A DNA stretch of 64,000 bases from Marispirochaeta aestuarii (GTDB lineage: Bacteria > Spirochaetota > Spirochaetia > JC444 > Marispirochaetaceae), in contig NZ_MWQY01000003.1 in assembly GCF_002087085.1 (NCBI RefSeq), positions 186,001 through 250,000 on the forward strand, in the 5' to 3' direction. Of this stretch, positions 32,251 through 55,604 are shown in pieces. Position numbers and translations under genes: made by a program. The notes beneath the pieces were generated by a model. The model did no database searches and had not been told where the DNA came from. It saw only the letters and a list, made by a program, of their open reading frames with translations. Position 1 is the stretch's first letter. Each line of letters starts with the position of its first letter.

Positions 32251-32324
<74 letters not shown>

Positions 32325-32390
32325 AAACAAATGCTTACAGCATCAAGAGTTAGGCTTCTTTCTGATCAAGCATTGAACCCTTCTTTGGCT

Positions 32391-32416
32391 CGTGTAGCCA
32401 ATTGCGTAGCCACTAT
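32391..32416 (+). repeat. left arm-type site
   Basis: A 26-bp block containing two GTAGCCA repeats (GTGTAGCCA-ATTGC-GTAGCCA). It matches 25 of 26 positions with 48652-48677 at the other end of the island, same orientation. Probable integrase arm-binding site. Confidence 0.7.
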
Positions 32417-32436
32417 CGCTCACCAAGGAGCATAGT

Positions 32437-33597: not shown

Positions 33598-33729
33598 AGC
33601 CTAAGACCATTCGTTCAATACATAGCCATCACTTTAACCTAATGTTTTACAATTCCCTTAAATTCTACACACTCTATACGGTTTCTGATAGCAAACAATT
33701 CCGTCAACGACACGGTATTTGGAAATTTG

Positions 33730-33769
33730 TATAATGATCACGTTCAAACAGTCATGAATCATCATGATT
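33730..33769 (+). promoter_or_regulatory. control region before the HTH gene
   Basis: TATAAT lies at 33730-33735, with a poor -35. A 6-1-6 perfect palindrome AATCAT-C-ATGATT follows at 33757-33769, a candidate operator, possibly for the HTH protein encoded 38 bases downstream. The rest of 33598-33806 shows no gene. Confidence 0.4.
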
Positions 33770-33806
33770 GTTGGTGATTATCGTTAAAAAGCTGGGAAGG
33801 ATTATT

Positions 33807-33992
33807 ATGAGGATTTTAACGAGTTATGAAACCGCAGAGATGTTGCGGATTTCAATGCCGACATTATATCGGCACGTACGAGATGGGTTGATTCCGTGCC
33901 TGAGAGTAGGTCGGCGAAAACTTTTTCGATATAGTGATATCGAAAAATTTATTGACAATCAGATCTCTGACGGGAGTACTAACGGTGTATAG
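33807..33992 (+). CDS. excisionase-like / MerR-type HTH protein
   Basis: A 61-residue single-domain winged-helix protein (YETAEMLRISMPTLYRHVRDGLIP, then VGRRKLFRYSDIEKFID), the HTH_17/excisionase type. The position next to an integrase suggests Xis or a recombination directionality factor, but it could also be a repressor. GGAAGG precedes the ATG. It overlaps the start of the ATPase gene. Confidence 0.8.
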   Translation: MRILTSYETAEMLRISMPTLYRHVRDGLIPCLRVGRRKLFRYSDIEKFIDNQISDGSTNGV

Positions 33993-35259
33993 TATTCCTG
34001 AAACAGCTAAGGCGAAATATGATCCATTGAATGAACATGTACTATCGGAAGACTTCGCCCATAACTATGGGACTCCGATTACAAGTAAGATTGACATTCA
34101 CAATGGGATAGTGATGGTACCAACTGACCGCGGGCTGTATGAAGTTCACTCACAAGAAGGAACCATCACTGTTGTACCATCATCGCAATCCAGACAGTTT
34201 ACCCTCTCAAGCCTGCTTTCAACAGAGTTCCCGGAACTCATCTGGTACGTCGATCGGCTTATAACACCAGGGCTCAGTCTGCTGTGGGGGTATGCTAAGA
34301 GCGGGAAGTCTATCCTTGCGCTGCATATCCTTGTTGACATCGTTCTTGGGCGCAAGGTGCTTGGTACTTTGGCAGTGAAACAATCATCTGCACTCTTCAT
34401 CAGCCTTGAGGATGGAGGTCGTCGCCTTAAGCAGAGGCTCCAAGCCGCTGGAGCAATAGGGAGTGATAATCTTATTATCCATACAGATTGGTCACGCGGT
34501 ACTGAAGGAGTCCGGGAACTTGAGCTGTTCTTGGATGTACATCCAGCTATCAGGGTTGTCGTTATCGACACACTCTTTCTTTTCTCCAAGTTGCCAGATA
34601 GCAACGATTACAGCTCTACTATTAGCCTCATGGAAACCCTTAAACGGGTAGCAGATGACAGGGACATCTGTATTATTGCTTTGCACCATAGTAAAAAGTC
34701 TGGCCGGGAAGATTCTACCGATATAACACAAACTGCCCTTGGTTCTACCGGAATCGTCTCTGGACCGGATCACTTGCTGTACCTAAAGCGGACTCCTGAA
34801 GGTCCTACTGATGCAGTGCTGTTCTTCCGATCCAAGGACGCCGAACCTGCTGAAATTGCGCTGACGTTTGACTCTACTATTCAGGGGTGGCGCTACGCAG
34901 GAGAAGCTGATGAGATGGCCGATACTGATGAGCGACAGGAGATCCTGGAACTGTTACGCCGTAATCAAGGCTCCATGTCCACTGGCGATATCGCGGATGC
35001 GCTGAGAAAGAAGAAAGCAGCTGTTTCAAACCTTCTTGGGCGACTTGTAAAAAAAGGCGCAGTAAGAAAACTCAGCTACGGGATTTACACCCTACCCTCT
35101 GGAGAGTCGTGTAACCCGTGTAACTGTGAAACTGAAGGAAGCAAGGAGGTGTTCCACCAGGATCAGGAAACGAGGACTTTCACAGTTTCACCACTTACAC
35201 AGGAGGTTGATGCTGAAGAGAGTGAAGGTGAAGACCAGGCTCAGGTGCCTTTGTTTTAG
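33985..35259 (+). CDS. RepA-like AAA_25 ATPase with winged-helix C-terminus
   Basis: About 424 residues from GTG at 33985 (GGGAG 8 bases upstream); the frame is open 17 codons further up, through the HTH gene. Walker A is GYAKSGKS (about residues 102-109) and Walker B is RVVVIDTLFLF. LHHSKKSGR matches the RecA/RepA hexameric helicase fold seen in plasmid and satellite replication proteins. The C-terminal ~80 residues contain a winged-helix (LRRNQGSMSTGDIADAL) and an acidic tail. A role in replication of the excised element is inferred. Confidence 0.82.
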   Translation: MYSIPETAKAKYDPLNEHVLSEDFAHNYGTPITSKIDIHNGIVMVPTDRGLYEVHSQEGTITVVPSSQSRQFTLSSLLSTEFPELIWYVDRLITPGLSLLWGYAKSGKSILALHILVDIVLGRKVLGTLAVKQSSALFISLEDGGRRLKQRLQAAGAIGSDNLIIHTDWSRGTEGVRELELFLDVHPAIRVVVIDTLFLFSKLPDSNDYSSTISLMETLKRVADDRDICIIALHHSKKSGREDSTDITQTALGSTGIVSGPDHLLYLKRTPEGPTDAVLFFRSKDAEPAEIALTFDSTIQGWRYAGEADEMADTDERQEILELLRRNQGSMSTGDIADALRKKKAAVSNLLGRLVKKGAVRKLSYGIYTLPSGESCNPCNCETEGSKEVFHQDQETRTFTVSPLTQEVDAEESEGEDQAQVPLF

Positions 35260-35269
35260 GGAGGCGGAG

Positions 35270-35542
35270 ATGGATTGGATGATATCCTGGCTAATTGATC
35301 TACACCTTAAGCAATCTGGCGCCTTCTTTAGTTCCCTGCCAATAGAAGACCAATGTTCTATTGCACACGCTCTTGGCAACATAAAGGCAGGAAATGCAAT
35401 GATCCATTCATTATCGAATGGCAATCGAGTGATTATCGGCAAAGATAGATGTTGCCGACCACAAGTAGTTCCAGCAGAGCAGATCATGACTCTGCTTGCC
35501 CTGAAGCAAAAGAGGCAGGAAGATGCAGTGTCCGAGAAATGA
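35270..35542 (+). CDS. small unknown island protein
   Basis: 90 residues, start ATG at 35270 with GGGAGGCGGAG just upstream, 10 bases after the ATPase stop. No motif recognised. A longer open frame upstream overlaps the ATPase and has no ribosome-binding site. Probably co-transcribed with the ATPase. Confidence 0.6.
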   Translation: MDWMISWLIDLHLKQSGAFFSSLPIEDQCSIAHALGNIKAGNAMIHSLSNGNRVIIGKDRCCRPQVVPAEQIMTLLALKQKRQEDAVSEK

Positions 35543-35669
35543 GAATCCCGAGTTCTGCACCGGTGCTTTCCTGTGCAGATTCTGGGATCCATTCAGCGTG
35601 AAATGTTCGTATCCGCTATTTGCCGCAGCAAGAAGAAGGGAGGCACAGGTAAAAAAGTTAGCAAAATGA
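35523..35669 (+). CDS. 48-residue cysteine-containing protein
   Basis: ATG at 35523, preceded by AGGCAGGAAG, overlaps the preceding gene by 20 bases in another frame. It contains four cysteines (residues 3, 12, 18, 28), a spacing that could bind zinc, and a basic C-terminus. Too short for firm support; the overlap and ribosome-binding site are the only evidence. Confidence 0.4.
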   Translation: MQCPRNENPEFCTGAFLCRFWDPFSVKCSYPLFAAARRREAQVKKLAK

Positions 35670-35733
35670 TCGAAGTGCAGCAGAATCCTTAGATTCTGCG
35701 GTACTACTTTTCTTTGTGTACTTCTGTAGGCAG

Positions 35734-35757
35734 AAACCCCTCTTGAGTGGGGTTTTT
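35734..35757 (+). terminator. rho-independent terminator after the replication genes
   Basis: Stem AAACCCC / GGGGTTT with an 8-base loop, followed by TTTTT. It ends the plus-strand integrase-ATPase gene block; the A tract before the stem means it may also work on the minus strand. Confidence 0.75.
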
Positions 35758-35893
35758 GTCGACATTAACTGAGTTTCTGTTAACATAATGTATACAGAAA
35801 TCCCCTTCAAGCTCTGTTTCTGCGTCATAGACAATTTCGATTCGTTCTTGAGAACTGAACCACTCCGGAAATCCCGGAGACTGTTTCGTGTGA

Positions 35894-36815
35894 CTACAGC
35901 CCGCTGGCTGTGTCTTCCAGTTGATTATAATATGCCGTCTCAAACTCGGCCGGAGGCATATATCCTAACGGTTCAAGAAGCCGTTTGTTGTTGAACCAGC
36001 TTACCCATTCCCGTGTAGCAGCGCCTCAATCACTTCAAGGTTTTTCCACGGACCTTTTTTCCGAATTACTTCAGTTTTGTAAAGCCCATTGATAGTTTCC
36101 GCCATTGCGTTGTCATACGAGCTGCCGACGCTTCCCACCGACGGCGTAACTTCAGCTTCTGCCAATCTCTTGGAATACCTGATGGAAAGGTACTGCCTAC
36201 CGCGGTCGCTATGGTGGATGAGTCCATCCTGTGTTTGTCTGGCCCACAAAGCCTGCTCGAGAGCATCAAGGGGAAGTTCCGCCTTCATCGAAGTCGACGC
36301 TCGTCACCCGACGATCATGCGGGAAAAGATAGCGATGATAAACGCGACGTACACAAAACCCATCCTCGTTGCAACATACGTAAAATCCGCAACCCACAGT
36401 TGGTTAGGCCTGGTTGCGTTGAAGTCCCGATTGACCAGGTCCAGTGGGAGTTTGTCTTCTTGGTCTGAGACGGTGGTTCGGACCTTTCGGCCCCGGACCA
36501 CGCCCTAAAGGCCCATAGAACACATAAGCCGCGCTATGGTGCACGTTGCGACTATGAAGCCTTCACGCTTCAGTTGACGCCAGATTTTACGGGCTCTGTA
36601 GACTTGGTAGTTCTCATCCCAAACCCGTCTGATTTCTGGCTTGAAGAATTCATCGCGCTGGATACGCGCAGGCGCTGTCTCAGGGGTTCGTTCCCGCTTT
36701 TTCTGCTCGTAATATACCGATGGAGCAATCGGCAGCGTTTTGCAGATTGACTCGACTCCATACTTGTTCCGGTATCTGTCGATAAATCCAACTATCTCTT
36801 TTGTGGGCGGTCGAG
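35894..36815 (-). pseudogene. IS3-family transposase OrfB, broken
   Basis: The DDE integrase domain is recognisable: D in VADFTYV, D in IHHSDRGRQY, E in DNAMAETINGLYK. Reading the orfB frame gives TAG at 36505-36507 (after ARLMCSMGL), TGA at 36304-36306 (after FSRMIVG), and a one-base shift at about 36010-36022, after which EWVSWFNNKRLLEPLGYMPP continues in another frame to TAG at 35894. The remaining pieces show the whole domain, so decay is recent. Confidence 0.9.
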
Positions 36816-37118
36816 CTCCGCCTTCACGAAATATCCGGCAACCAGGCGTAAAATCTCATTGGCTTTCTTGAGCTCCCGGACTTCCCGCTCTAAATCTTGT
36901 ATTCGTTTCTTTTCGTCGGAAGTGAGACCTTCGCGGTCCCCGTTATCTTTCTTCGCCTGGCGGATCCATCTTCGAAGCGTCTCCGACGTACAGCCAATCG
37001 TCTCGGCAATCGACTCTATGGCGGCCCACTGCGAATCATATTCGTCCTTGGCGGCGAACACCATCCTAACTGCCCGTTCCTTTACTTCCTCAGAAAACCT
37101 GTTGTTTTTCCTTATCAT
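36792..37118 (-). CDS. IS3-family transposase OrfA
   Basis: 108 residues with an N-terminal HTH of the IS3 OrfA type (FSEEVKERAVRMVFAAK, ETLRRWIRQAKKD) and a C-terminal leucine-zipper coiled coil (IQDLEREVRELKKANEIL). Intact, overlapping orfB. It would normally be fused to OrfB by programmed frameshifting; with orfB broken it may only act as a repressor, or not at all. Confidence 0.88.
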   Translation of the reverse strand: MIRKNNRFSEEVKERAVRMVFAAKDEYDSQWAAIESIAETIGCTSETLRRWIRQAKKDNGDREGLTSDEKKRIQDLEREVRELKKANEILRLVAGYFVKAELDRPQKR

Positions 37119-37171
37119 GACTCCATTCTCTCACAAGATTTTTTCTCCGGTAAAGTTGGGGCATTTCACTT

Positions 37172-37310
37172 GAGCCCATGTCTTTAATTACATTGAGGTG
37201 ATATTTTACATCAGGAAACGTCGTCATGAGCATCCCGATGGAAAGCCACCTGTAGAAGAATTAGTAGCTAAGGGGTGTCTATAAAACAAGGGGAATTCCA
37301 CTGTACCTCA
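37172..37310. other. gap between the IS and the methylase gene
   Basis: No full gene. A plus-strand run of about 28 codons (from a GTG near 37199 to TAA at about 37284, including KRRHEHPDGKPPVEELVAKG) looks like a protein C-terminus but has no recognisable source; it may be a remnant of sequence cut by the IS. Confidence 0.3.
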
Positions 37311-38951
37311 TCAACTGGTTGATGGAGATCGGGGACGCTGACGTTCCTGAAGGAGACGGTGATGCGCGTCCCGTGCTTCTTGCAGTATCTTCGGATCGAG
37401 TCCAGCAGCAACTAGCATATCGTCTACTTCGAGAGAAGCCTTCTCTCGGTGCCCGGACCGACAGAGTGCGTCCAACCGATGAAATTTTTCAGACGAGACA
37501 ACAAATCCATCAGGAGAAAGAAGCTCCAGAACATCCGAAGGATCGAGACGTAGGGCACCGCCACCAGTTCTTCGACCGACGATCTCTGCACTGAGCTGAG
37601 CTGGCGTAGAGAGCATTCCCACCGCTACCATTCGCTGGTGGGAGAGGGTCTTATCCAGAAAAGTAACTGCGTGTAGCGTATTCGTACATGCGACTCCAGA
37701 GCGGTTCAACGATAGACAAACAAAAGTCCCACTTGTATACGTCAAAAATGCATCTGGTGGAGAGGTGCCCGGCACTATATACCACGGGTGTCTACTTGAG
37801 CATTTGTGCCCTCGATGGATACCCTCTCGCTCGCCGTACTCGATATATGCCTGAGCTCCACTTGGGCAGTCACCTTTTAGCGGTGGCGAGAACAGGAATA
37901 GCTTTCCGAATCGATCCTCAGCCCAATTATTGTGAACACCAGTCACTTGCAGACCATGTACCTGTTTTGCTCGTGCAACTATCGGTACTAGACAGTCAGA
38001 TTCGATGCCACGATCGATAGCTTCGTCGAGCGACATGACGAAAAACCGCTTTGCACCAGTCACTGCGCCTATCCTAACATGAGCTCTTGACCCGAATGAG
38101 GGGTACTGGCTACGCAATATCTCAAGTACTGAAGCGGCACCCGAGCTTTTTGACGAGAGGTGCCAATCAGCCGGACGTTCCCTTGATAGAGTAATTTCAA
38201 CATCTTCCGAATGTATAGTTCTCTGCAGTTCGATTTTGTGTCGTTCCATTGACCTCAAAATCACCTTTGCACATCCGTCTTGCCTGTTTTCACCTAGGAC
38301 TAGAATACTTTCCTCTTGGGCTTCGGGAAATACCGTCCCAATAACGCGGATGATCTGCAACGACGCAAAAGAAGAAGCAAGGAGAGTGCGAATACGTTCA
38401 GCGTAGTTTGCATGAAGAAAGGCTCCAGGTAGTACAAAGGCTAAGTGCCCACCAGGTCGAATGAAACGGAGTGAATGTACTACAAAATAGGCCCAGTAGC
38501 TTGCGCGTCGCGAGACCTCTCCTCTACTACAGGATTGTTCCGCGGCGAGCCGTGCTGCATCACGAAGTAGGTGATGTCTGACGTACGGCGGATTGCCGAT
38601 GATGACGGAGTAAAGTCCCCCCACATCTGATGGAGTTAAGCGAAGGAAGTCTGTATGCATTAGTTTGGATTGCGCGAGGGACTTCCGCACAAAGGCGATA
38701 GACGTCGCTGCAGCAGAGTCAATCTCTACGCCAACTATCTGGCGGCTTGGATTACTGACTCCAAGATTCCGTAGGCGATTGAAGGCTGACTGCAAAAAAA
38801 CCCCGCTCCCGAAGCTCGGATCGATTACGGTATCATGCTCATTGCGAATTGCCCAAAGCGCCAATGCATCGGCAATATCAGTTGGGGTGTAGTACACACC
38901 ATTCCTTTTCTTCACCGAAACATTTGCTGAATTGGAGAGAGAATAGCTCAT
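37311..38951 (-). CDS. N6-adenine-type DNA methyltransferase of the DISARM-like operon
   Basis: 546 residues. AdoMet motif I is DPSFGSG (44-50), an acidic motif is GVEID (about 74-78), and catalytic motif IV is NPPY (120-123), so it is an Eco57I/PglX-like gamma-type adenine methylase. The C-terminal part (about 290-520) probably recognises DNA. It is the last gene of the operon and overlaps drmC by 4 bases. In published class 1 DISARM the methylase DrmMI is of adenine type, while class 2 has a cytosine-5 enzyme. A methylase of this kind should mark self DNA; the target sequence is unknown. Confidence 0.88.
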   Translation of the reverse strand: MSYSLSNSANVSVKKRNGVYYTPTDIADALALWAIRNEHDTVIDPSFGSGVFLQSAFNRLRNLGVSNPSRQIVGVEIDSAAATSIAFVRKSLAQSKLMHTDFLRLTPSDVGGLYSVIIGNPPYVRHHLLRDAARLAAEQSCSRGEVSRRASYWAYFVVHSLRFIRPGGHLAFVLPGAFLHANYAERIRTLLASSFASLQIIRVIGTVFPEAQEESILVLGENRQDGCAKVILRSMERHKIELQRTIHSEDVEITLSRERPADWHLSSKSSGAASVLEILRSQYPSFGSRAHVRIGAVTGAKRFFVMSLDEAIDRGIESDCLVPIVARAKQVHGLQVTGVHNNWAEDRFGKLFLFSPPLKGDCPSGAQAYIEYGEREGIHRGHKCSSRHPWYIVPGTSPPDAFLTYTSGTFVCLSLNRSGVACTNTLHAVTFLDKTLSHQRMVAVGMLSTPAQLSAEIVGRRTGGGALRLDPSDVLELLSPDGFVVSSEKFHRLDALCRSGHREKASLEVDDMLVAAGLDPKILQEARDAHHRLLQERQRPRSPSTS

Positions 38952-39805
38952 GATTTCTCCCCGCGATACTGATCCCCAAGGAAATCACTACCTTGCTGAA
39001 GAACAATTTCCATAAGCATCGAGAGGCGTTGCGCTATTGGACCCCGTAGAATTGTACCCGCCTCGAACCTCGAGCGCATACCTGCAACAGTAAAATTAGC
39101 AGATCCGAGATATGCCGAACGTCCGTAATCGGAGACAGCAGCTTTGAAGTGGAAAGTTGAGATACCGAACCGATCTGCTGTGTCAGGCGTGTTCCAAGTA
39201 AGAACCCTACACCCGGGGTAGTGTGCCAGTTGCTCAAGTCTCGCGAGAAGGGTTTTGCTCGAGCTAGCGTTGAAACGACCCAAGATCGTTAGTTGAACAC
39301 CTGACTTCAGCCGACGCTCCACGACTTGAGATATGTCCGAGACTGTATCGCTATCCCAAAAGGGAGCAGCAAGGATTACTCTCTGCTGCGCGCTTGCAAT
39401 CACATCAACAACCGCCGTCCGAAGATCAAGTGCGGTTCGCCGAATATCTGCTTGTTTATCAAGGGATAGACTGGAGGGAAAAGTCACACAGAGCTCAACT
39501 TTTGACTTTGAAGCCCTTTCCATTCCAAGGGCTGCTGCGACCCCTCGTCGGAACTCAGCAGTTGACTTCAGAATGGCATGGTCTATTTCAAAATTGTCAC
39601 CAGACGTGCGGTTTACAACTCCCAAGTCTTCCAGTCCGATCAGAGCAAGTTTAATCTCATCGTACGACGCGGAGCGTTCAGATAATTCAGCCTCGATTTC
39701 ATGAATTCCAACAGACTTGGTTTGATTGGAATAAGCTAACGATTTCTCAACAAGTTCAAGGAGCCGCCCGAGGCGACGCGCCGCTTCAAGATACCGGGTA
39801 CTCAA
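38948..39805 (-). CDS. drmC: DrmC, phospholipase-D-like protein
   Basis: 285 residues with an N-terminal winged-helix-like region (about 1-95) and a C-terminal PLD domain. A single HKD-type motif is seen: H219-F-K221, D226, then GSAN (234-237), as in DrmC. PLD-family nucleases act as dimers of such half-sites. It overlaps drmB by 4 bases and the methylase by 4. Ofir et al. 2018 found DrmC dispensable in some DISARM settings, so it may be auxiliary. Confidence 0.85.
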   Translation of the reverse strand: MSTRYLEAARRLGRLLELVEKSLAYSNQTKSVGIHEIEAELSERSASYDEIKLALIGLEDLGVVNRTSGDNFEIDHAILKSTAEFRRGVAAALGMERASKSKVELCVTFPSSLSLDKQADIRRTALDLRTAVVDVIASAQQRVILAAPFWDSDTVSDISQVVERRLKSGVQLTILGRFNASSSKTLLARLEQLAHYPGCRVLTWNTPDTADRFGISTFHFKAAVSDYGRSAYLGSANFTVAGMRSRFEAGTILRGPIAQRLSMLMEIVLQQGSDFLGDQYRGEKS

Positions 39806-41826
39806 TACTCAACTCCATCCAACTGCCAGAATCCTACAATCTGCTCGAAATTGCTAACATCTGCCCATGGAGCATGTCCACCAATCAAGAAAGTCCTCGA
39901 CAAGCCGTGATTAAATGTACGACACGATATCTCCGGAGACTGAATACAACCGTGACATGCACCTCGTCCATCAATGCAGGTTGAATCATACACGCAATAT
40001 AGTGCTTCGTTAGCCAAAGCATCCAGAAACGCACTAAGTTGATCACGGACGAGTGTCTCAAAGCCACCGAGTTGAAAACTCCCTGAACTATCATAAATCA
40101 CAGTTCCTAGGAGCGGGAGAAACAAATACTCGGACAAGGATGTACGTTCGAGACCAGAATACCAGCTGGCAGCGCGCATCGCTGCATGTGAGAGAGTATG
40201 GACCAATCCAAAGACCATTCTACGCACTCGACAACTCCAGATGTCGTCGTAGTAGCGATCAATAGGCTCAAGATGGCTAAGGATCCACGACAATGGAGAT
40301 TTCTCGTTTTGAGGTACAGCGATCCCATTTGTCCGGAGCCAAGCCGCTACTCTTGCTGGATCGAGGGAGAGAAAGATTCCCTCGTGATCGCCCTCACGAG
40401 CGAGGATTGGAACTGTTCCGACGAGTTCCGGTCGCCCAAGCCGTTGAGCGGCAGCATACTTATCAAGCGAAGGAAATGCACGGATTTCAGTCGGAAGATC
40501 CTGTGCCGATAGCTCCTCGAAAGTCGGCAAAAAGGAACGACGCGTGTAGCCGAAGGTTGCAGTAATAACTGGTAGATCCTCAACTAACATGAGGTCCTTT
40601 ATTCCAAGCTGAGAGCGCGTATTTGCAATCTCGTCGGCAAGCAACGCTGTTGCACTGTCTTCCGAATCTATGACACTCATAGCATCTATAGTTGTTACAG
40701 TGGACCGAAAGGCGAGACTTTCCCGTATAGACGACTGAACATCTATCTCAAGGTGGATGCCTTCAGTTTCATCGTTTTTTTCCTCTTCGAGAGAAGGAGA
40801 TACTACAGCTGTTGCTGCTACAGCAATACGAGACATCAGTTCGGCAGCTCGCTGCGAATCTCCTGTCTGCCGTGCCGCTTGAGCGGCTTTCGTCAATTCT
40901 TGGATCACATCGATGGGATTCACCGGCCGCAAAGGCCGCTCACCGACAGGTAGCAGCGACCAGAGTGTCCTCTGCTCATCATCTGGTATACCAGTTACAG
41001 ATGGTCTGTCCAGACGCAGAATTGTTAGGGACTGCGGATAATAGGTTGCATTCGCACTGTATCGAGTCATACGCATCGCTGTCCTAGTCACGAAAGTACT
41101 GTCAGTATCTCCGCGGTCTACGGATCCGATAGCTCTCTCCTTCACAATGTCCTTAGCACACCGCGGGCAAGTTGCTGTGAACCGGTCCACAACAGTATGG
41201 CCGCACTTTTTGCATATGACCTTCATGTCTTTTACCCGTTCGGACATCGCTGACAACTCTAGATGACCACCTTCTTTGCAGTTGGGGCACCGCAGTCTCC
41301 GCTTCGAAGGCACCAGCAATCCATCTTTCGTCTTACGCGTAGTAGGCAAGTATTCGGAAACAGCGACAATCTCGCCACAACCATGTACGAAAACTTGTCC
41401 AAATTGTCTTACGGTCCGACTGTGGCACGCTGGACAGAATAGGGATGCTGCGGGTAAACCTCGCGGAAAGAAAAGAGTGCCGCAAGAACTGCAAAGAAAT
41501 GCTGTCTCAAAGACCCTTGCCTCCACAGACTCTGGCAGACCAATAGTGAAACGTTGCGCTTCACGTAACGGATCCGGGAAGTTCCGGTCGATACGACCAC
41601 CACGCGACTCCCAACGCTTGAGCTGCTCATTGACCTCTGCCAGTAAAACTTCCGCCCTTGAGGGCTCCCAAACACTCGACAGCCGAACGTTACCCAATTT
41701 TACGACTGCGACACCGTCTTCCCAGTCAACAGTACGTCCAGGAAGATAGTTAAACAATAACTGCGATACTCCTCGCGTCATTGAAAGGGCGGCGATGTCT
41801 GAATTGCTATAGCTATTACTGTCCAC
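39802..41826 (-). CDS. drmB: DrmB, DUF1998 protein
   Basis: 674 residues. Cysteine pairs at about 112/115 and 131/134, 180/183, and 205/208 with 220/223 form several zinc ribbons; a C-terminal cluster CIDGRGACHGCIQSPEISC with following HGLSR is the DUF1998 signature. DrmB partners DrmA to form the core DNA-binding complex of DISARM. It overlaps drmA by 11 bases and drmC by 4, indicating coupled translation. Confidence 0.9.
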   Translation of the reverse strand: MDSNSYSNSDIAALSMTRGVSQLLFNYLPGRTVDWEDGVAVVKLGNVRLSSVWEPSRAEVLLAEVNEQLKRWESRGGRIDRNFPDPLREAQRFTIGLPESVEARVFETAFLCSSCGTLFFPRGLPAASLFCPACHSRTVRQFGQVFVHGCGEIVAVSEYLPTTRKTKDGLLVPSKRRLRCPNCKEGGHLELSAMSERVKDMKVICKKCGHTVVDRFTATCPRCAKDIVKERAIGSVDRGDTDSTFVTRTAMRMTRYSANATYYPQSLTILRLDRPSVTGIPDDEQRTLWSLLPVGERPLRPVNPIDVIQELTKAAQAARQTGDSQRAAELMSRIAVAATAVVSPSLEEEKNDETEGIHLEIDVQSSIRESLAFRSTVTTIDAMSVIDSEDSATALLADEIANTRSQLGIKDLMLVEDLPVITATFGYTRRSFLPTFEELSAQDLPTEIRAFPSLDKYAAAQRLGRPELVGTVPILAREGDHEGIFLSLDPARVAAWLRTNGIAVPQNEKSPLSWILSHLEPIDRYYDDIWSCRVRRMVFGLVHTLSHAAMRAASWYSGLERTSLSEYLFLPLLGTVIYDSSGSFQLGGFETLVRDQLSAFLDALANEALYCVYDSTCIDGRGACHGCIQSPEISCRTFNHGLSRTFLIGGHAPWADVSNFEQIVGFWQLDGVEY

Positions 41827-44800
41827 GCGACAACCTCTGAATCAATTTCTTATCTGCGGAATCCCAGATTATGATGAACCCAGGATCATCCGAATCTCGC
41901 AAGCTACGCATTGACGATAGATGCGAATTCAAGTTTACGGATCTCCTACCATGTACACGTTCTTGGTTCACTATACTGCTGTAGTGATTCTGAACTACCA
42001 CCTCAAGCTGTTCGCGATAGCGTCTGCTTGGAGCCAGATCCGTTCCATACGCGCTATTCATCCATGCGATGATTTCCGATACTTCGAGAGCCTCTGCATT
42101 CTCGCTCCCTTGCAAGTCCTGCACGTCCGCGACCGATACAATACGCCGGCGTATATGTCTCGGAGCTATGGCCATCAAATATCCTGCGAGAATACCGGCA
42201 GATGTTCTTCGTAAGGCAGGTTCGGGCCAACGAATGATTGCAGACGGATCCACAAGACGGTCAAGATACTCATGGAATTTACAAAAGCGATCAAATACGC
42301 TTCTATCTCTCTCACTTTGTGGAGTAGCAACGAACAGTGATATCCCAGGCACCGTTCGTCCTACTCTCGCAGATGCTTGGATGTACTCAGCGACGAGTCT
42401 CGGAAAACCGGCAAAGACAATGATGTTGAACCGGTCGACGTCAACTCCATGACCAATCACGTTTGTAGTTACGATACCGCGCGTCCGCTTCGCGGGGTCT
42501 CCAAGTGGATCAGCGGTTCTAATCGCGTGAACAATGCGACTCATCTCCGATTCAGAAATTCCCCCATTAAAGGTAGTAACGAGGAGATCACCGTGCTCGG
42601 GAGCCAGACGCTGAAGCTCTCGCTTCACTCGTGACTCTATAGCCTCAGCGACTTGATCAGAACCTTTACGCGTGAGAACATATGATAAAACTAACTCATA
42701 GTAAAAAACCAGCAACTTGTAATCATCTTTCGAGAGATCGCCCAAACCATAGCGATCCGCCATGGCCGCGGTATCGGTGTCAGCCAGATGCCGCGCTAAC
42801 TGTAGTTCTTCATAGAGTAGAGAGAGCGTGCGAGTTACAGCAGGTGTGTGCTTTCGTCCCACACCAAGAACTCCCACGAAAACTCTCCCGAGTTTTGCTC
42901 GGTTTTGTGCATAGTAAAAGGACTCATAGGCACTAGGCCCCGGGCCAGGAAACTGTCGAGACTGTCGCAAGTAAAGATGCCAAGCATGTGTCTTGTAACG
43001 TTCGATTGTCGCTGTTGCAGCAACGATTTTCCACGGTCTGCTGCCGAGAGTGTAAGCCAAGTTCATTACAGCCGTTTCGTAGTGCGAGTCAAATGTGCCC
43101 AACTCCTCACTAAGCAGGTGCATTTCGTCCTGAATCAGAAGGCTGGGGGCTGGATCTTTAAAAGGTCCATAGTGTATCCGGTTCGTCGCAGTACCACACG
43201 ACTCCGGAGTCTCCCCTGCCGCGTAGGCTACTGCTGCACTGCAGATTCGGTTAGAATCAAGAAAACTTGTTCCGTGAGTAGGGCAAACCAAGTCAAATCG
43301 ACCAAATAATTCGGCAAATCGCTGGTTTTGCCCAAACTGAGCGAGTTTGTCGACGGTCGAGACGATAACCGTTGGCACAAACCGATAAACGTCTTGGTCT
43401 ACAACGTAAATTGGAAGACGATTCTGTCCCCCGGGACATGAGTCACTCGTGCAACGGTGCTCCACAATGCGGTTAGAAGCATCGTATGACAGAACAGTAT
43501 CGCACCCACAGAATGGACAAGCGAATACACGCCGAAGCTTATCGTCTGGTCCGTTTGTGACAAACCGACGATGCGCGTCATCATCGATACGATTTGGTGT
43601 CGTCCCACTGCCAACAAAGTATCCCATTGAGAAACGAGCGCCACCGAGCCTCTCACGGTGCCGTATAAGCTCTGCAGACCCCAGTGCGGAGCCTAGGCGT
43701 TGCAGTTGTTGAAAAGTTAGAAGACGCAATGGGAATCTCACAAAGGCGGTAACACCAATTCGTTTACCCCTTAGTCGATCAAAGAAAGCTTGCCAGATCA
43801 GAAGACCGAGAAATGCCTCCGTCTTTCCGCCCCCAGCTGCAAACCAAAGGATATCCACGTCATCGTCATGTTCTTCGCGAATTTCCTCGTATTCTCGCGA
43901 AGCAAGTCCAGGAATCTGTGACACGATAAACACAATTTGAAACAAGCGCCACCTATCATAACGTCCGTCAGCAGCAGCTTCCATCGCCTCGTTCATCAAC
44001 ACGAAGGCCCGCAACACATGATCGAAACTGTCGTCCGCAAGTAGTTTAATGCCTCTGGAAAACCGCTGAATTTCGTCGCGAAATCTCTTCCGTGCTTCTG
44101 AAGCGTCGGTGAGCTCTTTTCCCATGAGACCAGAAAGAGTGTCTCTCCATTCGATTCTATCGTACGATTTCATCGCGGTGAGGATCGACTGAAGAGTATG
44201 AATGGGATCACTGCGCATTGAATCGAATGTTGGAGCGCCGTCTGGGATTTCGCGCGGTTCGAGTCTGTAGACATATTCGATCGGCGTGGCATCTGTTGAG
44301 AGTATAACATTCCCGTTCTGAGCATCGTGCCTCACGTGACAGTTGATGCCAATCCCCGCCATTCGTCGGTCGTATCTGAAGCTCTTCGGTAGTTCTCGGA
44401 ACACCGAGAACCGATGCGCACTTGCAGGCAACACAACACTTAACCGAACACGGTAGAGATTTGGGTCAAGGAAATCACCTTCGCCGCGACCAGGTACCTC
44501 AGTTCGGTTGATCACTCTAAGAACCACTCGCACACATTCTGGTTCCGTCGGAATCGGTACAATCCGTACATCAAGTACCGGGCTCCAAAAATTGCGTAGG
44601 GACGCCATTCCCAAGGAGCTGAGCCAACTGCGGTATTTCTCATTAGATTTCACATTCTCTTGCGACACTTGAAACTGTGTTACTCCAGGGTAGAGATCCC
44701 TAGGCGAGATGGAGTCGAGATACCTACGAAAACTTTGGGAAAGATCCATAGTTATCTTCTTTCGCTGGCAGAGATCCCGTATGTTGATTTCGGGTGCTAT

Positions 44801-45319
44801 AAGTCCTGTCACATCTTCCCGTGTCCATACCGGCACAATCTCAGAAGTTTTTATCCCAGTATCGTTACTACCTACACTTTCGTCGACCGATTTGGAAGAA
44901 GAATACTCACGCCGCCAAGCTCCCAGGCCCGATTGTTCCTCTAAAGTCGGCAATCTACGCACATAAATACTAGCACTGAAATCAATGACCATTGCACCGG
45001 CCATTTCGCAGGCCTCATGTGGCATCTTCCATTGAAGCCCAAGAGAAGACTGCTCATAGGCCGAATCCTGCGGGAGGTCTTCTGCCAAACTATCAAGGTC
45101 GTTTCCGGCAGAGATAGGACCAAGTATGGAACTTTTTGGGGACGGCTCGGGCTGATTAGCCATTCGTGATGCAGGAGTCAAGAAACCACAAAGCACGGTG
45201 TCTCTTGGGAACTGACCTACCAACCGCGAGGCAGTTTGATCGGAACCTTGTGCGCGTTCGGCGAATCGTCTTGCTAGATTAATTGAAAATGCATTATATT
45301 CATCGTCAGATATCGACAT
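41816..45319 (-). CDS. drmA: DrmA, SF2-type helicase
   Basis: 1167 residues. The helicase core starts near residue 480: Walker A-like AAGGGKTE (about 495-502), DEMH (731-734), ATATIERY (about 768), and a C-terminal motif VI region YIQASARVGRT. The motif I residues before GKT are AGG, as in DrmA/DUF1998-linked helicases. CPFCGC and CTSDSCPGG add a zinc insert near 600-630. The N-terminal ~450 residues are the DrmA-specific trigger-loop region. Overlaps the drmE-like gene by 14 bases. Confidence 0.93.
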   Translation of the reverse strand: MSISDDEYNAFSINLARRFAERAQGSDQTASRLVGQFPRDTVLCGFLTPASRMANQPEPSPKSSILGPISAGNDLDSLAEDLPQDSAYEQSSLGLQWKMPHEACEMAGAMVIDFSASIYVRRLPTLEEQSGLGAWRREYSSSKSVDESVGSNDTGIKTSEIVPVWTREDVTGLIAPEINIRDLCQRKKITMDLSQSFRRYLDSISPRDLYPGVTQFQVSQENVKSNEKYRSWLSSLGMASLRNFWSPVLDVRIVPIPTEPECVRVVLRVINRTEVPGRGEGDFLDPNLYRVRLSVVLPASAHRFSVFRELPKSFRYDRRMAGIGINCHVRHDAQNGNVILSTDATPIEYVYRLEPREIPDGAPTFDSMRSDPIHTLQSILTAMKSYDRIEWRDTLSGLMGKELTDASEARKRFRDEIQRFSRGIKLLADDSFDHVLRAFVLMNEAMEAAADGRYDRWRLFQIVFIVSQIPGLASREYEEIREEHDDDVDILWFAAGGGKTEAFLGLLIWQAFFDRLRGKRIGVTAFVRFPLRLLTFQQLQRLGSALGSAELIRHRERLGGARFSMGYFVGSGTTPNRIDDDAHRRFVTNGPDDKLRRVFACPFCGCDTVLSYDASNRIVEHRCTSDSCPGGQNRLPIYVVDQDVYRFVPTVIVSTVDKLAQFGQNQRFAELFGRFDLVCPTHGTSFLDSNRICSAAVAYAAGETPESCGTATNRIHYGPFKDPAPSLLIQDEMHLLSEELGTFDSHYETAVMNLAYTLGSRPWKIVAATATIERYKTHAWHLYLRQSRQFPGPGPSAYESFYYAQNRAKLGRVFVGVLGVGRKHTPAVTRTLSLLYEELQLARHLADTDTAAMADRYGLGDLSKDDYKLLVFYYELVLSYVLTRKGSDQVAEAIESRVKRELQRLAPEHGDLLVTTFNGGISESEMSRIVHAIRTADPLGDPAKRTRGIVTTNVIGHGVDVDRFNIIVFAGFPRLVAEYIQASARVGRTVPGISLFVATPQSERDRSVFDRFCKFHEYLDRLVDPSAIIRWPEPALRRTSAGILAGYLMAIAPRHIRRRIVSVADVQDLQGSENAEALEVSEIIAWMNSAYGTDLAPSRRYREQLEVVVQNHYSSIVNQERVHGRRSVNLNSHLSSMRSLRDSDDPGFIIIWDSADKKLIQRLSRGQ

Positions 45320-47582
45320 ATGCTTCCTCTTCGCACTTGATTATATCGTCTACCACCCGCATCTGAGCGGCTGACATCAGTTGGCTGACAGACATTCCCC
45401 ACTCCCGTTCTATTTGTGCGAGCGTCAGTGGTCCCAGTCGGCTAGAGTAAGATGCCCGAATTGCTCTTGCTAGATCTCGTCCTGCTTTTCTGTGAAGGAC
45501 CCGCCAGCGTTTGATCCGATCGAAATACCTCCGAAGATCAGGCTCATATAAACTCACACCAAGTGCCGCAGCAAAAGCTCTAAAACGCTCCCAACTTGCA
45601 GGAGTGCTCGCAGCATCAATGTCTTTGAAAGTAATCCACGACCTGATCGTTGAGTAAGTGACCGGGTGTCCTCTCTCTGCAAGTACACGGGTGATTTTCC
45701 TTAGACTGGGACGGTTTTCAGAATACACCGACTTAACGATAAGCAACCACTCCTCACGAGCAGCGGCAAATTCCTTTAATACACCCGCATCAAGCATCGC
45801 TATTCGACGTTCAGAGAATAGTTCGTGTGAATCATCGTCCAACATGACGATTTTATCTCCAATTTGCAGATTCTCAGCGAACGTGACTGTAGTGTGGCCA
45901 CCCGCAGCACCAAGGACTTCGAACCGCGTATGCTGCCCTGTTGTCATTATAGTTCCATCTTCGAAGACTAATGTAACCTCGCCAGCATTTGCTCGGAAAT
46001 CATTGTCAATCTCATTGGACTCAGTCTTGATTGTCGTCCCTGCGACGTCCATGCCTATAGGCAATTCCGCTGTGTCGGCGAAAGGAGGAACATAAGGCTC
46101 CAAGGCCGCCATTAAACTTTCCAGTGGTTCCGCAGCTGCTGATTGGCCCACGCTTTTCAGTAGTTCGATCATACTGTTCGCACCATACCATGCAGCTCTG
46201 ACTTCCAATGGATCCATAACAAGTTGAGCATTTTTCACTCGATGCGAGAGTATTGCGTCAAGGGTAGCCATTCCGCTGTATCCAATGACTATTGCCCTCT
46301 CATAGCTCCGATGCAAACCACGTTGTCCCACCCACCTTGTCGTCACGCCGAGTTCGTGAAGTCCTTTTGTATCGATACCTAGGACACTCGCTACAGAATG
46401 CTCTACAGACAAAGCCGTTCGTTGGTCCCGCACCAAAACCAGCAACTGCCCATTGCCTTCCTCGTGGATGATGGAAGCAACGGCTGCGTCAAGTCTTTCT
46501 TGCTGGATAGCGACATCTGCCGCTGTGGCAGTGAGTAGTTCGGTGCAGTATGTCAGCATGCTGGCTTCTTCAGGACGAGCATTCTGCAATCGCTCTAACG
46601 CAGCGAAGTAACGCGCCAACTCACGATTCTCATAATTATCAACTGCCTGACGCAATGACCACCAAGCCGCCCGTGCAAGTCGAACAAGCCGATCGAGTTC
46701 GCCCGACATGTCGCTCAAGCCTTCCAATGCAAGATCTAAACTGCGCTGAGCCGAAAGTCGGGTTCCACCGACAGAGACAACTCCGCCTCCAATAAATACC
46801 GGTGGCGGAAGGACAGGTAAAAAGGTCTCAGCTACGTTTTCGATATCCATAGGCAAACCCAAGAGATCACTAGGACTCGCAGCAACGATGACAGTGGGAG
46901 CCGAATCTTCTCGTATCCCAAGAATCGAACTAACAATTTTTCTTCCGCGAATACCTCGATAGAATTGAATATCGGCCAAAACAACATCCGCCTCCGCCAG
47001 AGTTCGTAGTCCGAACTCTCCGGGACGTCGATTCGCAGGTACCTGAATGTGTGGTCTGTATTCGGAATGAGAAGTGTATCTCCCGAGCACAGGGCGTGAA
47101 CCTTTTACAACTCTACCAGTCGGATGTACGCGATCAATACCCATGAAACATTTTGACCCCAATAGCCTCTCTGAAAGATCGCATTTATGTCGTTGGAATG
47201 CATCCTCCCAGTCAGGCTGGACGAAGTCACGTTCTTGTTCACGTTGCTCCATGTGCCTGGTCCGACGTGCTTCGAGCCGCCTTGCGCTTGATTCGGACAC
47301 CGAATACGCCAATGAATCATCAAGATTAAGGACTGGAACTACGCTCCAGGAAGCATTTAACGAAAGCCATGGAACCGCGTCTGGCCAACGGACGTGAAGA
47401 TACAGTGGAAGCTCGGATACATGGGGGATATGCGTCCACGAAGTGAAAAGAACAATTCCACCTGCTCCGCTTGCATGGCGCAGAGCCGCGACCATCGGGC
47501 GCAAATCCTTGTCAATAACTGCTAAACGACATTCCTCGGTGCTGGAGAAGAATGCAGAAAAGTTTTGATTCGATGGCATCAA
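45306..47582 (-). CDS. drmE: DrmE-like first gene of the DISARM-like operon
   Basis: 758 residues. Position, length and overlap with drmA match DrmE of class 2 DISARM, but I recognise no strong motif. Visible parts are an N-terminal alpha/beta region (GIVLFTSWTHIPH), a mid region with LLVLVRDQRTALSVE and AIVIGYSGMATLDAIL that reads like a degenerate helicase lobe, a beta-rich segment (about 555-615: VFEDGTIMTTGQ, IGDKIVML) and a helical C-terminus with an HTH-like stretch (KITRVLAERGHPVTYSTIRSWI). No Walker A is seen. It could be a different protein in the DrmE slot. The start is the second of two adjacent start codons, or the first. Confidence 0.6.
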   Translation of the reverse strand: MMPSNQNFSAFFSSTEECRLAVIDKDLRPMVAALRHASGAGGIVLFTSWTHIPHVSELPLYLHVRWPDAVPWLSLNASWSVVPVLNLDDSLAYSVSESSARRLEARRTRHMEQREQERDFVQPDWEDAFQRHKCDLSERLLGSKCFMGIDRVHPTGRVVKGSRPVLGRYTSHSEYRPHIQVPANRRPGEFGLRTLAEADVVLADIQFYRGIRGRKIVSSILGIREDSAPTVIVAASPSDLLGLPMDIENVAETFLPVLPPPVFIGGGVVSVGGTRLSAQRSLDLALEGLSDMSGELDRLVRLARAAWWSLRQAVDNYENRELARYFAALERLQNARPEEASMLTYCTELLTATAADVAIQQERLDAAVASIIHEEGNGQLLVLVRDQRTALSVEHSVASVLGIDTKGLHELGVTTRWVGQRGLHRSYERAIVIGYSGMATLDAILSHRVKNAQLVMDPLEVRAAWYGANSMIELLKSVGQSAAAEPLESLMAALEPYVPPFADTAELPIGMDVAGTTIKTESNEIDNDFRANAGEVTLVFEDGTIMTTGQHTRFEVLGAAGGHTTVTFAENLQIGDKIVMLDDDSHELFSERRIAMLDAGVLKEFAAAREEWLLIVKSVYSENRPSLRKITRVLAERGHPVTYSTIRSWITFKDIDAASTPASWERFRAFAAALGVSLYEPDLRRYFDRIKRWRVLHRKAGRDLARAIRASYSSRLGPLTLAQIEREWGMSVSQLMSAAQMRVVDDIIKCEEEAYVDI

Positions 47583-48135
47583 TGAGCATTACCTCTTCAG
47601 AAATCGAAAGATGCAACGCAGATGATACTTACCTGAGTGGTGAGACATGACTTTTGTCACGATGCAAGAGTGTACTGGCACTTGGAATCCGCTGGTCCGC
47701 AGCTTTTGAATTGTACATGCAATTGCCGTGCCTCAACAGCCAAGATGTAGATCTGGTTCATACTAACAATACAGTCAGTATAACGTGAATCACGAGCGTT
47801 CTGAGCCGTTGCCCTCACACTTTGAACTGTCAGCTTTACCGACTCCGAACCAGGACTTTAGCCCACGATTCCTTGTAGCTGCTGTTCCATTGTAAGTAGA
47901 TGGGGCAATGGTTCGTTCATACTTACAGATACTCCTTTGGGCAACTACACGAATTAACCATTAAGCCTTGTCACGATGGCGATTCAAACGCTCCTAGACT
48001 GAACCTACCTTACACAAATGACGTTACGCTATTAAACGATATTTCCATCTATTTTACCGGTTAGCATGTGTTCTTGCAACTGCAAAATCATGATAAGGTA
48101 AGTATGCTGTTAGTAGGGGCGGTTCATAAGAGATG
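47583..48135. other. 550-bp non-coding region upstream of the DISARM-like operon
   Basis: No reading frame of note. Two copies of TTGTCACGATG occur in the same orientation at 47654-47664 and 47968-47978. No convincing sigma70 promoter was found; the region must hold the operon's control elements or an unseen small RNA. Confidence 0.5.
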
Positions 48136-48366
48136 TTATCGGTGATCCAAACATATATGGCACGCACAAGCTCCCACTGGTTTTGCGAAATTACCCAGGT
48201 TCTCTGACAAGGACCAGATGCTCTCTGCTGCCTCCACCGGCAAGGTACGGACAGCAGCGTCTATACGACTGAAGTCGATGTCGGATCGTTCAACTGGAAG
48301 TTGATCGTGATATATTCCACGAAAGCGGGCGTGCTTCCGTCTGGCCTTCAACCTTTGAGTGTTCAT
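48136..48366 (-). CDS. possible 76-residue island protein
   Basis: ATG at 48366 has CTGGGGA upstream. The product has a basic N-terminus (RLKARRKHARFRG) and a cysteine-containing C-terminus (ACACHICLDH), which could bind a metal. Upstream of the defence operon and on its strand, so a regulator is conceivable. The evidence is only length, start context and position. Confidence 0.35.
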   Translation of the reverse strand: MNTQRLKARRKHARFRGIYHDQLPVERSDIDFSRIDAAVRTLPVEAAESIWSLSENLGNFAKPVGACACHICLDHR

Positions 48367-48651
48367 CGTTAGTTCCCCAGACTGTTGATTGTGGTTTTGC
48401 CGTGCACTCCTGGGATTGCTGATCGTTCGATTATTCCTTGCTCGTGTGTAGAAAGAGACCATCGATATATGCAGATATGCAGGCGAATATTTTTTGGGGT
48501 TCAATCGTGGTGCAGCCTGTAAGCAATTAAAGAACCATCAGCACAAAACCTTTTTTCATATGCCAGCAGTATCTTATGGTTTGCGCCGATGTGCAACTTT
48601 TTTCCTTTCTTGACCAAGCCGACGAGTAATTCCAATTGTCTACATTTTCCC

Positions 48652-48677
48652 CGTGTAGCCAATTGTGTAGCCACTAT
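48652..48677 (+). repeat. right arm-type site
   Basis: 25 of 26 bases identical to 32391-32416 (C to T at one position), with the same paired GTAGCCA units, 119 bp inside the attR core. Confidence 0.7.
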
Positions 48678-48698
48678 TTTCTCTATTATCTAAAAGTT

Positions 48699-48718
48699 AT
48701 GATCACTCATGATCACTC
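48699..48718 (+). repeat. tandem 10-bp repeat near attR
   Basis: ATGATCACTC occurs twice head-to-tail between the arm site and the attR core, one helical turn apart. This is the usual layout of excisionase sites (inference). Confidence 0.55.
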
Positions 48719-48746
48719 TTGACATGTTAATTTTTTGTTATATAAT
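48719..48746 (+). promoter_or_regulatory. strong promoter reading out of the island's right end
   Basis: TTGACA (48719-48724), 16-base spacer, TATAAT (48741-48746): both hexamers are consensus. It reads toward attR. In the excised circle it would read across attP into the integrase about 210 bases away. Confidence 0.7.
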
Positions 48747-48796
48747 GATTTATGTAAGTCGTGAGCGATGGTAAATATCTCTAATATCTCACGTCG

Positions 48797-48844
48797 TCAG
48801 CCTTCCAAGCTGATGACGTCGGTTCGATTCCGATCAGGCGCTGA
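48797..48844 (+). repeat. attR core (48-bp direct repeat)
   Basis: Perfect copy of 32277-32324, the 3' part of tRNA-Gly. The 5' half of the tRNA is missing here, so this is not a gene. Confidence 0.95.
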
Positions 48845-49929: not shown

Positions 49930-50292
49930 ATGGTGTATCCGGAATTGTCAAAACTCATCCTGGATTCCGCTTTTGCTGTTCACAGATCCCTCGGTCCTGG
50001 GCTGCTGGAGCTGCCCTACCACAACGCTTTGTATTACGAGCTTGCCGGTAATAATCTGCAGGTTGGCTACAACGCTCCGTTTAATGTTTGCTACCGTGGG
50101 CATACGGTAGGAGAGTATTTTGCAGACCTCATGGTAAACGGTACTGTCATTCTGGAGGTCAAGGCGGTCTCCGCCCTGGGCGTGGAACATACGGCCCAGC
50201 TGCTAAATTATCTGCATATTTCCGGCTGCAGGCTGGGCTTTCTGCTCAATTTCGCGCCTCAACGGCTGGAACTCAAGCGGCTGGTTTTGTAG
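49930..50292 (+). CDS. GxxExxY family protein (PD-(D/E)XK nuclease-like)
   Basis: 120 residues. The family-name motif is G24-L-L-E27-L-P-Y30. A nuclease-like core has D66 (EYFADL) and E76-V-K78 (ILEVKAV), the PD-(D/E)XK pattern, then Q90. The family is common in spirochaetes and other free-living bacteria, often in several copies; no function is proven. GAAGGAGG lies 8 bases before the ATG, within the outer helix of the leader. Confidence 0.85.
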   Translation: MVYPELSKLILDSAFAVHRSLGPGLLELPYHNALYYELAGNNLQVGYNAPFNVCYRGHTVGEYFADLMVNGTVILEVKAVSALGVEHTAQLLNYLHISGCRLGFLLNFAPQRLELKRLVL

Positions 50293-50382: not shown

Positions 50383-50454
50383 AATGCTTGATAGAGCTGT
50401 TGAATAGCTTTATATTATGCACTGACAGCATTGCTATCAATGGAGGGTTTTACC

Positions 50455-50709
50455 GTGGCTTCTTTAACGATTCGAAACCTGGATAAAGAGATAAAATCCC
50501 GGCTGCGGGTACTGGCTGCCAGACATGACAGGTCCATGGAGGAGGAAGCGCGGTGTATTCTTGGAGAAGTCCTTACCAGAGAAGAGAACGAGAAAGAAAA
50601 CTCCGGGCTTGGGTCCCGTATTCACCGGAGATTTTCTGATACTGGGGGCATAGAACTCAGCATTCCGGAACGGCGAGAACCTGCACGAGCAGCGGAAATT
50701 ATTGAATGA
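50455..50709 (+). CDS. FitA-like antitoxin (Arc-type)
   Basis: 84 residues from GTG at 50455, with GGAGGG 8 bases upstream. The N-terminus ASLTIRNLDKEIKSRLRVLAARHDRSMEEEAR is the FitA/Arc ribbon-helix-helix fold. It should bind its own promoter and neutralise the PIN toxin with its C-terminal tail. It overlaps the toxin start by 4 bases (ATGA). Confidence 0.88.
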   Translation: MASLTIRNLDKEIKSRLRVLAARHDRSMEEEARCILGEVLTREENEKENSGLGSRIHRRFSDTGGIELSIPERREPARAAEIIE

Positions 50710-51128
50710 TAGTTCTGGATACCAATGTGCTATCCGAACTTATGCGGCCGACCCCGAACCCAGTCGTTATTACATGGCTTGATACCCTTCCTGTCAGGGA
50801 CGTTGCTTTAAGCTCGATTACTGTTTCGGAGATACTTTTCGGTATAGGTTTGTTACCGTCTGGAAAAAGAAAGGATCAACTCATTTCCGCAGCAAAGACA
50901 CTCTTTGAAACTGATTTTCAGGACCGCATATTTCCTTTCGATGCCGATGCAGCTGTTGAATACGCGGCGATCGTACTTCATCGTCAAAAGTCCGGCCGCC
51001 CCATATCCATGGCTGATGGCCAGATTGCAGCAATATGCAGGGCACGGAAATGCTCGCTTGCGACCCGGAATATAAAGGATTTTGAAGGTACGGGAATAGT
51101 ATTGATCGATCCTTGGGCCGAGGGGTAA
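50706..51128 (+). CDS. vapC: FitB/VapC PIN-domain toxin
   Basis: 140 residues with PIN-domain acidic residues D5 (LDTN), E42 (SEILF), D104 (SMADGQIAA) and the LATRNIKDF strand. VapC-type RNases cut tRNA or other RNA and are held inactive by the cognate antitoxin. Type II toxin-antitoxin module; sandwiched between the two duplicated GxxExxY units. Confidence 0.93.
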   Translation: MIVLDTNVLSELMRPTPNPVVITWLDTLPVRDVALSSITVSEILFGIGLLPSGKRKDQLISAAKTLFETDFQDRIFPFDADAAVEYAAIVLHRQKSGRPISMADGQIAAICRARKCSLATRNIKDFEGTGIVLIDPWAEG

Positions 51129-54438: not shown

Positions 54439-54491
54439 CTAATTTTGGTAAATTCACAGATAGACTTTAAAAGTTATTGTCTTATCCTATA

Positions 54492-55583: not shown

Positions 55584-55604
55584 ATTTACTCCATTTCTTT
55601 TTGA

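Follow-up and report, generated by a model that had tools for sequence, protein, structure and literature searches.

Defence island system associated with restriction-modification (DISARM) operons are divided into two published classes by the parts they contain, which raises the question of how to read a locus whose parts come from both lists. For the class definitions we rely on PMC9252829 and PMC9142583; as encoded in PADLOC, type I comprises DrmA, DrmB, DrmC, DrmD and DrmMI, with drmE prohibited, and type II comprises DrmA, DrmB, DrmC, DrmE and DrmMII (PMC9252829). The locus in question lies in a 64,000-nucleotide stretch of the Marispirochaeta aestuarii genome (hereafter the window; positions 186001-250000 of contig C3 in a 4.2-Mb, 78-contig assembly). 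An earlier note on this DNA had read there five overlapping genes (drmE-like, drmA, drmB, drmC and an N6-adenine-type methylase), had seen no DrmD, and had taken this combination, foreign to either published class, as pointing to a hybrid subclass. Profiles and overlaps confirm the five genes, and the locus fits neither PADLOC type. The mixed list of parts stands, yet nothing in the locus comes from class 1. We consider it likely instead that the locus is a DISARM-type defence operon in which a DrmE-type core is joined to an adenine methylase, carried as cargo by a 16.5-kb integrative element at a tRNA-Gly gene.

The operon occupies positions 37311-47582 of the minus strand, where neighbouring open reading frames (ORFs) overlap by 14, 11, 4 and 4 nt in turn:

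45306-47579, minus strand: drmE-like gene, 757 amino acids (aa) from ATG; Pfam DrmE_C at 37.2 bits, profile from 29 other DrmE at 91.9 bits, predicted model, no P-loop
41816-45319, minus strand: drmA, YprA-type superfamily 2 (SF2) helicase, 1167 aa; profile, solved-structure and motif matches
39802-41826, minus strand: drmB, DUF1998-type zinc-binding partner of DrmA, 674 aa, GTG start; profiles, CxxC motifs
38948-39805, minus strand: drmC, phospholipase D-type nuclease, 285 aa, TTG start; Pfam PLDc_2, NCBIfam DrmC, motif
37311-38951, minus strand: N6-adenine DNA methylase, M.Eco57I/M.BseCI-like, 546 aa; profiles, tree, motifs

For the drmE-like gene, the ATG at 47579, with AGAGG upstream, is better read as the start than the TTG at 47582. 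Gene order, overlaps, intact catalytic motifs, the chemistry class of the methylase, phylogenetic position and the ends of the element are all read from the DNA itself.

The features by which DISARM is recognised are present: a YprA-type DrmA with an adjacent but separate DUF1998-type DrmB, a phospholipase D nuclease DrmC after drmB, and a DNA methylase within the operon. DrmA scores 377 bits against NCBIfam DrmAS and 427 bits against PADLOC DrmA; its only solved relative by sequence is the DrmA of the DISARM cryo-electron microscopy structure 7s9v (E 2.5e-56), and its motifs GGGKT (43820-43834), DEMH (43118-43129) and QASARVGR are intact. DrmB (78 bits in NCBIfam, 91 bits in PADLOC) matches the solved DrmB 7s9v_B weakly and contains CxxC motifs, and DrmC (NCBIfam DrmC 61 bits, PADLOC 43 bits, Pfam PLDc_2 37 bits) keeps HxKxxxxD as HFKAAVSD (39128-39151). 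The drmE-like product exceeds the gathering cut-off of Pfam DrmE_C (27), scores 52 bits against NCBIfam DrmE_fam (cut-off 80), and is matched by the 29-DrmE profile at residues 500-747. Since the NCBIfam scores of DrmA, DrmB, DrmC and the drmE-like protein all lie under the curated cut-offs, we regard the four as divergent homologues.

The last gene is of the N6-adenine type, as the earlier note had it. Its product matches Pfam N6_Mtase (58 bits) and Eco57I (46 bits), shows no cytosine-5 family at E<0.1, has the N6-adenine enzymes M.BseCI and M.TaqI as closest solved relatives, and retains DPSFGSG (38802-38822) and NPPY (38583-38594). A search with PF00145, the cytosine-5 family, found no match in the operon or in the whole assembly. 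Sharing a chemistry with class 1 does not make the enzyme DrmMI: at 546 aa it is only marginally similar to the methylases of 1100-1570 aa that stand beside DrmD (L026, L038, L062, L073 and L105) and falls apart from them in the methylase tree, so that by sequence it belongs to another enzyme family. The closest relatives found are plasmid-borne methylases resembling those of type II restriction-modification (RM) systems, which the window enzyme joins in that tree (support 99/96); downstream of them comes a partner of about 250-340 aa, an arrangement like that of two-gene RM cassettes. No restriction-enzyme-like partner lies downstream of the window methylase, where the next minus-strand ORFs are the remnant of an insertion sequence; the locus thus does not show the pairing of a methylase with its own restriction enzyme gene that marks a type II RM system.

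As for DrmD, no such SNF2-type helicase was found in the operon, and the genome holds distant SNF2 helicases only, the nearest being HmaA. The best match to the DrmD model in the genome (369 bits, cut-off 610) lies 20 kb from the operon, just beyond the window, and is that same HmaA (1581 bits), adjoining HmaB (1193 bits). This is an Hma system in its own right, occupying window positions 63145-64000 and running on into L006 (1145-7437), with the start of HmaB overlapping the window end and both proteins above 1100 bits in PADLOC; its presence explains the DrmD-like match. The DrmD model was also matched in 14 of 14 control genomes, so a low score against it means little. We rejected a DrmD hidden elsewhere, because the top match is HmaA of this separate system and the next is a DUF1156/phospholipase-D-helicase pair on another contig. 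The latter, at L009 808-6452 (contig C16), is an anti-phage pair of a DUF1156 methylase and a phospholipase-D helicase, scoring 1294 and 1198 bits, above the NCBIfam cut-offs.

If nothing in the operon is of class 1, where does it belong? A search with a DrmA alignment returned at least 80 genome loci and 21 viral loci, to which plasmid loci were added, and their neighbourhoods were annotated with locally built profiles; the resulting census of DrmE with an adenine methylase is a lower bound, not an exhaustive count. Besides the window, 29 DrmE loci stand among the matches listed; in the stretch examined, a cytosine-5 methylase accompanies DrmE at 8 of these, and a methylase of the window's family at none. 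The same search uncovered a distinct lineage of at least 19 loci (18 Pseudomonadota, 1 Acidobacteriaceae) in which an unannotated protein of 880-970 aa precedes drmA. No Pfam or NCBIfam match was found for this protein in the four members scanned, nor any PADLOC match in the three scanned. Profile-profile comparison nevertheless aligns it with the DrmE family at a probability of 99.4% (E 5e-21, 660 columns) and with the window DrmE alone at 90.8% (E 1e-6), identifying it at the sequence level as a divergent DrmE. By our local N6 profile, 18 of the 19 lineage loci among the matches listed carry an adenine-type methylase, its family confirmed on L047; the remaining locus, L072, is cut at the contig start and was assigned by its DrmA. 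The lineage methylase is mostly first in the operon, but in L075 (Salinarimonas rosea) it is last, as in the window. Elsewhere, three actinobacterial DrmE loci (L064, L066 and L086) encode a downstream protein with a DPPY motif, that of L066 matching amino-methylase models, and three haloarchaeal loci (L013, L125 and L126) have an adenine-type enzyme of 1380-1415 aa after drmC, so the pairing of such cores with amino-methylases recurs. By sequence comparison, then, the window's pairing is not an isolated case: a broad lineage, unnamed in databases, combines homologues of DrmE with adenine-type methylases.

The DrmA and DrmB trees, a check that the earlier note had proposed, place the locus in the DrmE-bearing radiation, away from class 1. 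In a mixture-model DrmA tree of 51 rows the window is sister to the adenine-methylase lineage (99/99), and the DrmB tree gives the same placement (91/95, with a long-branch warning). Approximately unbiased (AU) tests, with alternatives picked after the tree was seen, reject grouping the window with L030 (p 0.022) or with L013/L125 (p 0.002). When the lineage is removed, the window DrmA remains among the DrmE-bearing loci, with L030 as its neighbour (82/93), and a 100/100 branch separates class 1. The anchor for class 1 is L105, where both DrmD (710 bits) and DrmA (1470 bits) score above the NCBIfam cut-offs. We take the trees as firm that DrmA and DrmB are not of class 1, and as making the sister relation to the adenine-methylase lineage likely. 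Neither a cytosine-5 match to the methylase nor a class 1 position for DrmA and DrmB was found; the earlier note would have counted against itself the first, or the second together with a DrmD homologue elsewhere. The methylases tell a different history: those of the Pseudomonadota lineage form their own clade (99/99) except for one divergent row, L128, and the tree led us to reject orthology between them and the window enzyme. We conclude from this disagreement with the DrmA and DrmB trees that methylases have been exchanged, and the separate origin of the window enzyme suggests that the methylase slot is exchangeable.

Other arrangements surfaced among the related loci. Seven (L018, L020, L022, L028, L059, L079 and L097), one of them in a Spirochaetaceae metagenome-assembled genome, have a DrmA-DrmB pair flanked by UvrD-like and NERD-domain helicases, with DrmC, DrmE and methylase not recognised; loci of this kind (e.g. 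L020, L059) were set aside as a different system, possibly another undescribed DISARM-like one. On the viral contig L106, DrmA falls in the class 1 clade, yet DrmE and a cytosine-5 methylase are present, which makes that locus a better candidate than the window for a real mixture of class 1 and class 2. No DrmA was found in phage records.

What DrmE contributes can be approached through its predicted fold. We modelled the window DrmE (AlphaFold2, 24-row alignment, mean predicted local distance difference test (pLDDT) 59) and the divergent DrmE of L047 (15-row alignment, pLDDT 75), from alignments with zero sequences in common. In Foldseek searches the top solved matches of both were SF2 helicases, namely MDA5, RIG-I, XPB and Hef for the former and RIG-I, Hef, FANCM and SNF2-type for the latter, with a best E of 2e-6 in each case. 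The Walker A pattern is missing from 31 of 32 DrmE and from all 19 divergent DrmE, and a P-loop pattern is found in 22 of 24 SNF2/DrmD-type helicases. We read DrmE as probably a catalytically dead SF2-helicase-like protein in the place of a live DrmD. By sequence, no solved relative of the window DrmE was found; a DrmE profile run against solved structures pointed no more than weakly (E 0.003) to a mini-intein (Hint) fold for the C-terminal beta domain, and we do not rely on this. The Hint-like part spans columns 586-657 of profile A3, equivalent to about residues 537-600 of the window DrmE, and is beta-rich. No close relatives of the window DrmE were found among plasmids, viral contigs or 392 other genomes of the phylum, and the DrmE profile had zero matches in 246 other genomes of the phylum, an absence consistent with horizontal arrival.

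The vehicle of such an arrival can be seen around the operon:

32251-32322, plus strand: tRNA-Gly(TCC), integration target
32277-32324: left attachment repeat, 48 nt, 3' part of the tRNA
32384-32416: left inner repeat, 33 nt, 88% identical to 48645-48677, possible integrase arm site
32437-33597, plus strand: tyrosine integrase, 386 aa; Pfam Phage_integrase 55 bits; a congener's integrase at the same tRNA is 61% identical
33934-35259, plus strand: backbone gene of the element, encoding a 441-aa AAA_25 ATPase that has a winged helix at its C terminus; Pfam AAA_25 78 bits; relative in the congener's element
36001-37118, minus strand: insertion-sequence remnant (HTH_Tnp_1 ORF 36792-37118, rve fragment 36001-36288)
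48645-48677: right inner repeat, 33 nt
48797-48844: right attachment repeat, 48 nt, identical to the left; two congeners have other inserts between copies of this repeat

The element between the perfect 48-nt direct repeats measures about 16.5 kb; its integrase adjoins the tRNA, and its main cargo is the DISARM operon. Congener G394 (left flank 73% identical) also has two repeat copies at this tRNA, and between them lies another insert, 5.9 kb long, whose integrase is distant. In congener G393 two copies bracket 22.6 kb that encodes a 61% identical integrase, a related ATPase (33%) and a cargo of a type I RM system, a SoFic-type protein and a prokaryotic viperin. Three congeners thus have three different inserts between the same repeat copies at this tRNA-Gly (window 32251-48844; L155, L156 and L157), and we read the site as a hotspot used by a family of elements whose defence cargo is interchangeable. 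Further along the window are two near-identical small genes of the PDDEXK_3 nuclease family (49930-50292 and 51500-51862; GxxExxY type) in repeated surroundings, flanked by a repeat with many copies in congeners, and a FitA-like antitoxin with a PIN-domain toxin (50431-51128). From near a LacI-type regulator, positions 54001-60000 have a G+C content of about 36%, against 50-57% elsewhere, and are likely another recent acquisition.

Defence activity, a division of labour among the proteins and methylation as a self mark are proposed by analogy. DrmAB is stimulated by unmethylated DNA and prefers 5' overhangs, methylated DNA lowers its ATPase rate, and DrmC appears non-essential (PMC9142583). 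By the same logic, the window methylase would place its own adenine motif mark on the host chromosome, and the DrmA-DrmB translocase would load on incoming unmarked DNA, perhaps at free 5' overhangs as in the solved DrmAB complex, and become activated. DrmE, probably a dead helicase-like scaffold at the place held in class 1 by DrmD, may aid recognition or assembly, and DrmC may add cutting. As to origin, the DrmE-type core branches deeply and would most likely be sister to the unannotated, mostly Pseudomonadota lineage, and the methylase would have come by independent acquisition or replacement from type II RM-like stock.

Several findings weigh against this account. Known DrmE profiles match the C-terminal third of the window protein only (residues 537-756), and its model has a low-confidence pLDDT of 59. 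The template modelling (TM) scores of the DrmE models to helicases are low (0.1-0.4; about 0.2 for the window model), so that the SF2-helicase likeness is a hint of topology and not a superposition. The Drm proteins of the window score below NCBIfam cut-offs, and in all the trees the window sits on long branches, so that attraction may account for part of the sister relation.

The most serious competitor supposes that an ordinary class 2 DISARM has lost its cytosine methylase and that a type II RM methylase, unrelated to the system, has landed downstream by chance and plays no functional part. The kin of the enzyme are indeed RM-like, and the scarcity of cytosine-5 methylases at other DrmE loci (8 of 29) raises the possibility that a DrmE core can function with a methylase encoded elsewhere, or with none. 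A chance arrival fits poorly, however, with a gene that overlaps drmC by 4 nt at the end of a tight operon and is followed by just an insertion-sequence remnant, or with the company that adenine-type methylases and DrmE-type cores keep in 18 of the 19 sister-lineage loci listed, in L075 at the same terminal position; we judge it unlikely. A true recombinant of class 2 genes with the class 1 methylase DrmMI would account for a part list combining features of both published classes, and we give it very little credence: the window enzyme is of the M.Eco57I/RM kind, the methylase tree already contradicts such an origin, and DrmA and DrmB do not lie near class 1. That the system chiefly serves its mobile element, excluding rival plasmids or elements rather than phages, seems equally improbable as a main role. 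The operon does ride on a mobile element at a tRNA hotspot, and DISARM can block plasmid conjugation (PMC9142583), but the congener's element at the same tRNA carries known anti-phage systems, and the two roles are compatible.

A locus that joins a DrmE-type DISARM core to an adenine methylase, and shares this plan with a whole lineage, shows that at least one widespread arrangement escapes the textbook scheme of two classes. Since detection tools rely on fixed part lists to recognise DISARM, they would miss both this locus and the lineage of at least 19 others. The self-marking methylase also begins to look like an exchangeable slot. The two models without Walker A also give a lead on the long-unknown DrmE. 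Going further, and with more doubt than confidence, one may picture a third DISARM branch with a catalytically dead, SF2-helicase-shaped DrmE and exchangeable adenine methylases, DrmE being in general an inactivated helicase scaffold that replaces the active DrmD. If that were true, the split between class 1 and class 2 would be one of live versus dead helicase partner and not of methylase chemistry.

Set beside known systems, the locus resembles ARMADA and Hma in pairing a helicase with an adenine methylase for defence, and a real Hma locus lies 20 kb off. The YprA helicase of ARMADA, however, has BrxHII-like and PglX-like partners (PMC12458937), neither of which is in the window operon, and Hma is without DrmA, DrmB, DrmC and DrmE. 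With class 1 DISARM the locus shares an adenine methylase and homologues of DrmA, DrmB and DrmC, including those of the solved DrmAB complex (7s9v/7s9w), but it has DrmE instead of DrmD, a methylase other than DrmMI, and DrmA and DrmB that are distant in trees. Like class 2, it has a drmE-like gene directly upstream of overlapping drmA, drmB and drmC, and its DrmA and DrmB lie inside the DrmE-bearing radiation; unlike class 2, it has an adenine methylase in place of the cytosine-5 DrmMII and a DrmE recognisable in its C-terminal third only. The unnamed Pseudomonadota lineage (e.g. Polaromonas plasmid pPNAP03 and Afipia plasmid pOC167), where DrmE is annotated as hypothetical, differs in a methylase from another clade that usually comes first and in a DrmA of about 1400 aa against 1167 in the window, yet it has the same part list, is sister to the window in both the DrmA and DrmB trees, and in L075 has the same gene order.

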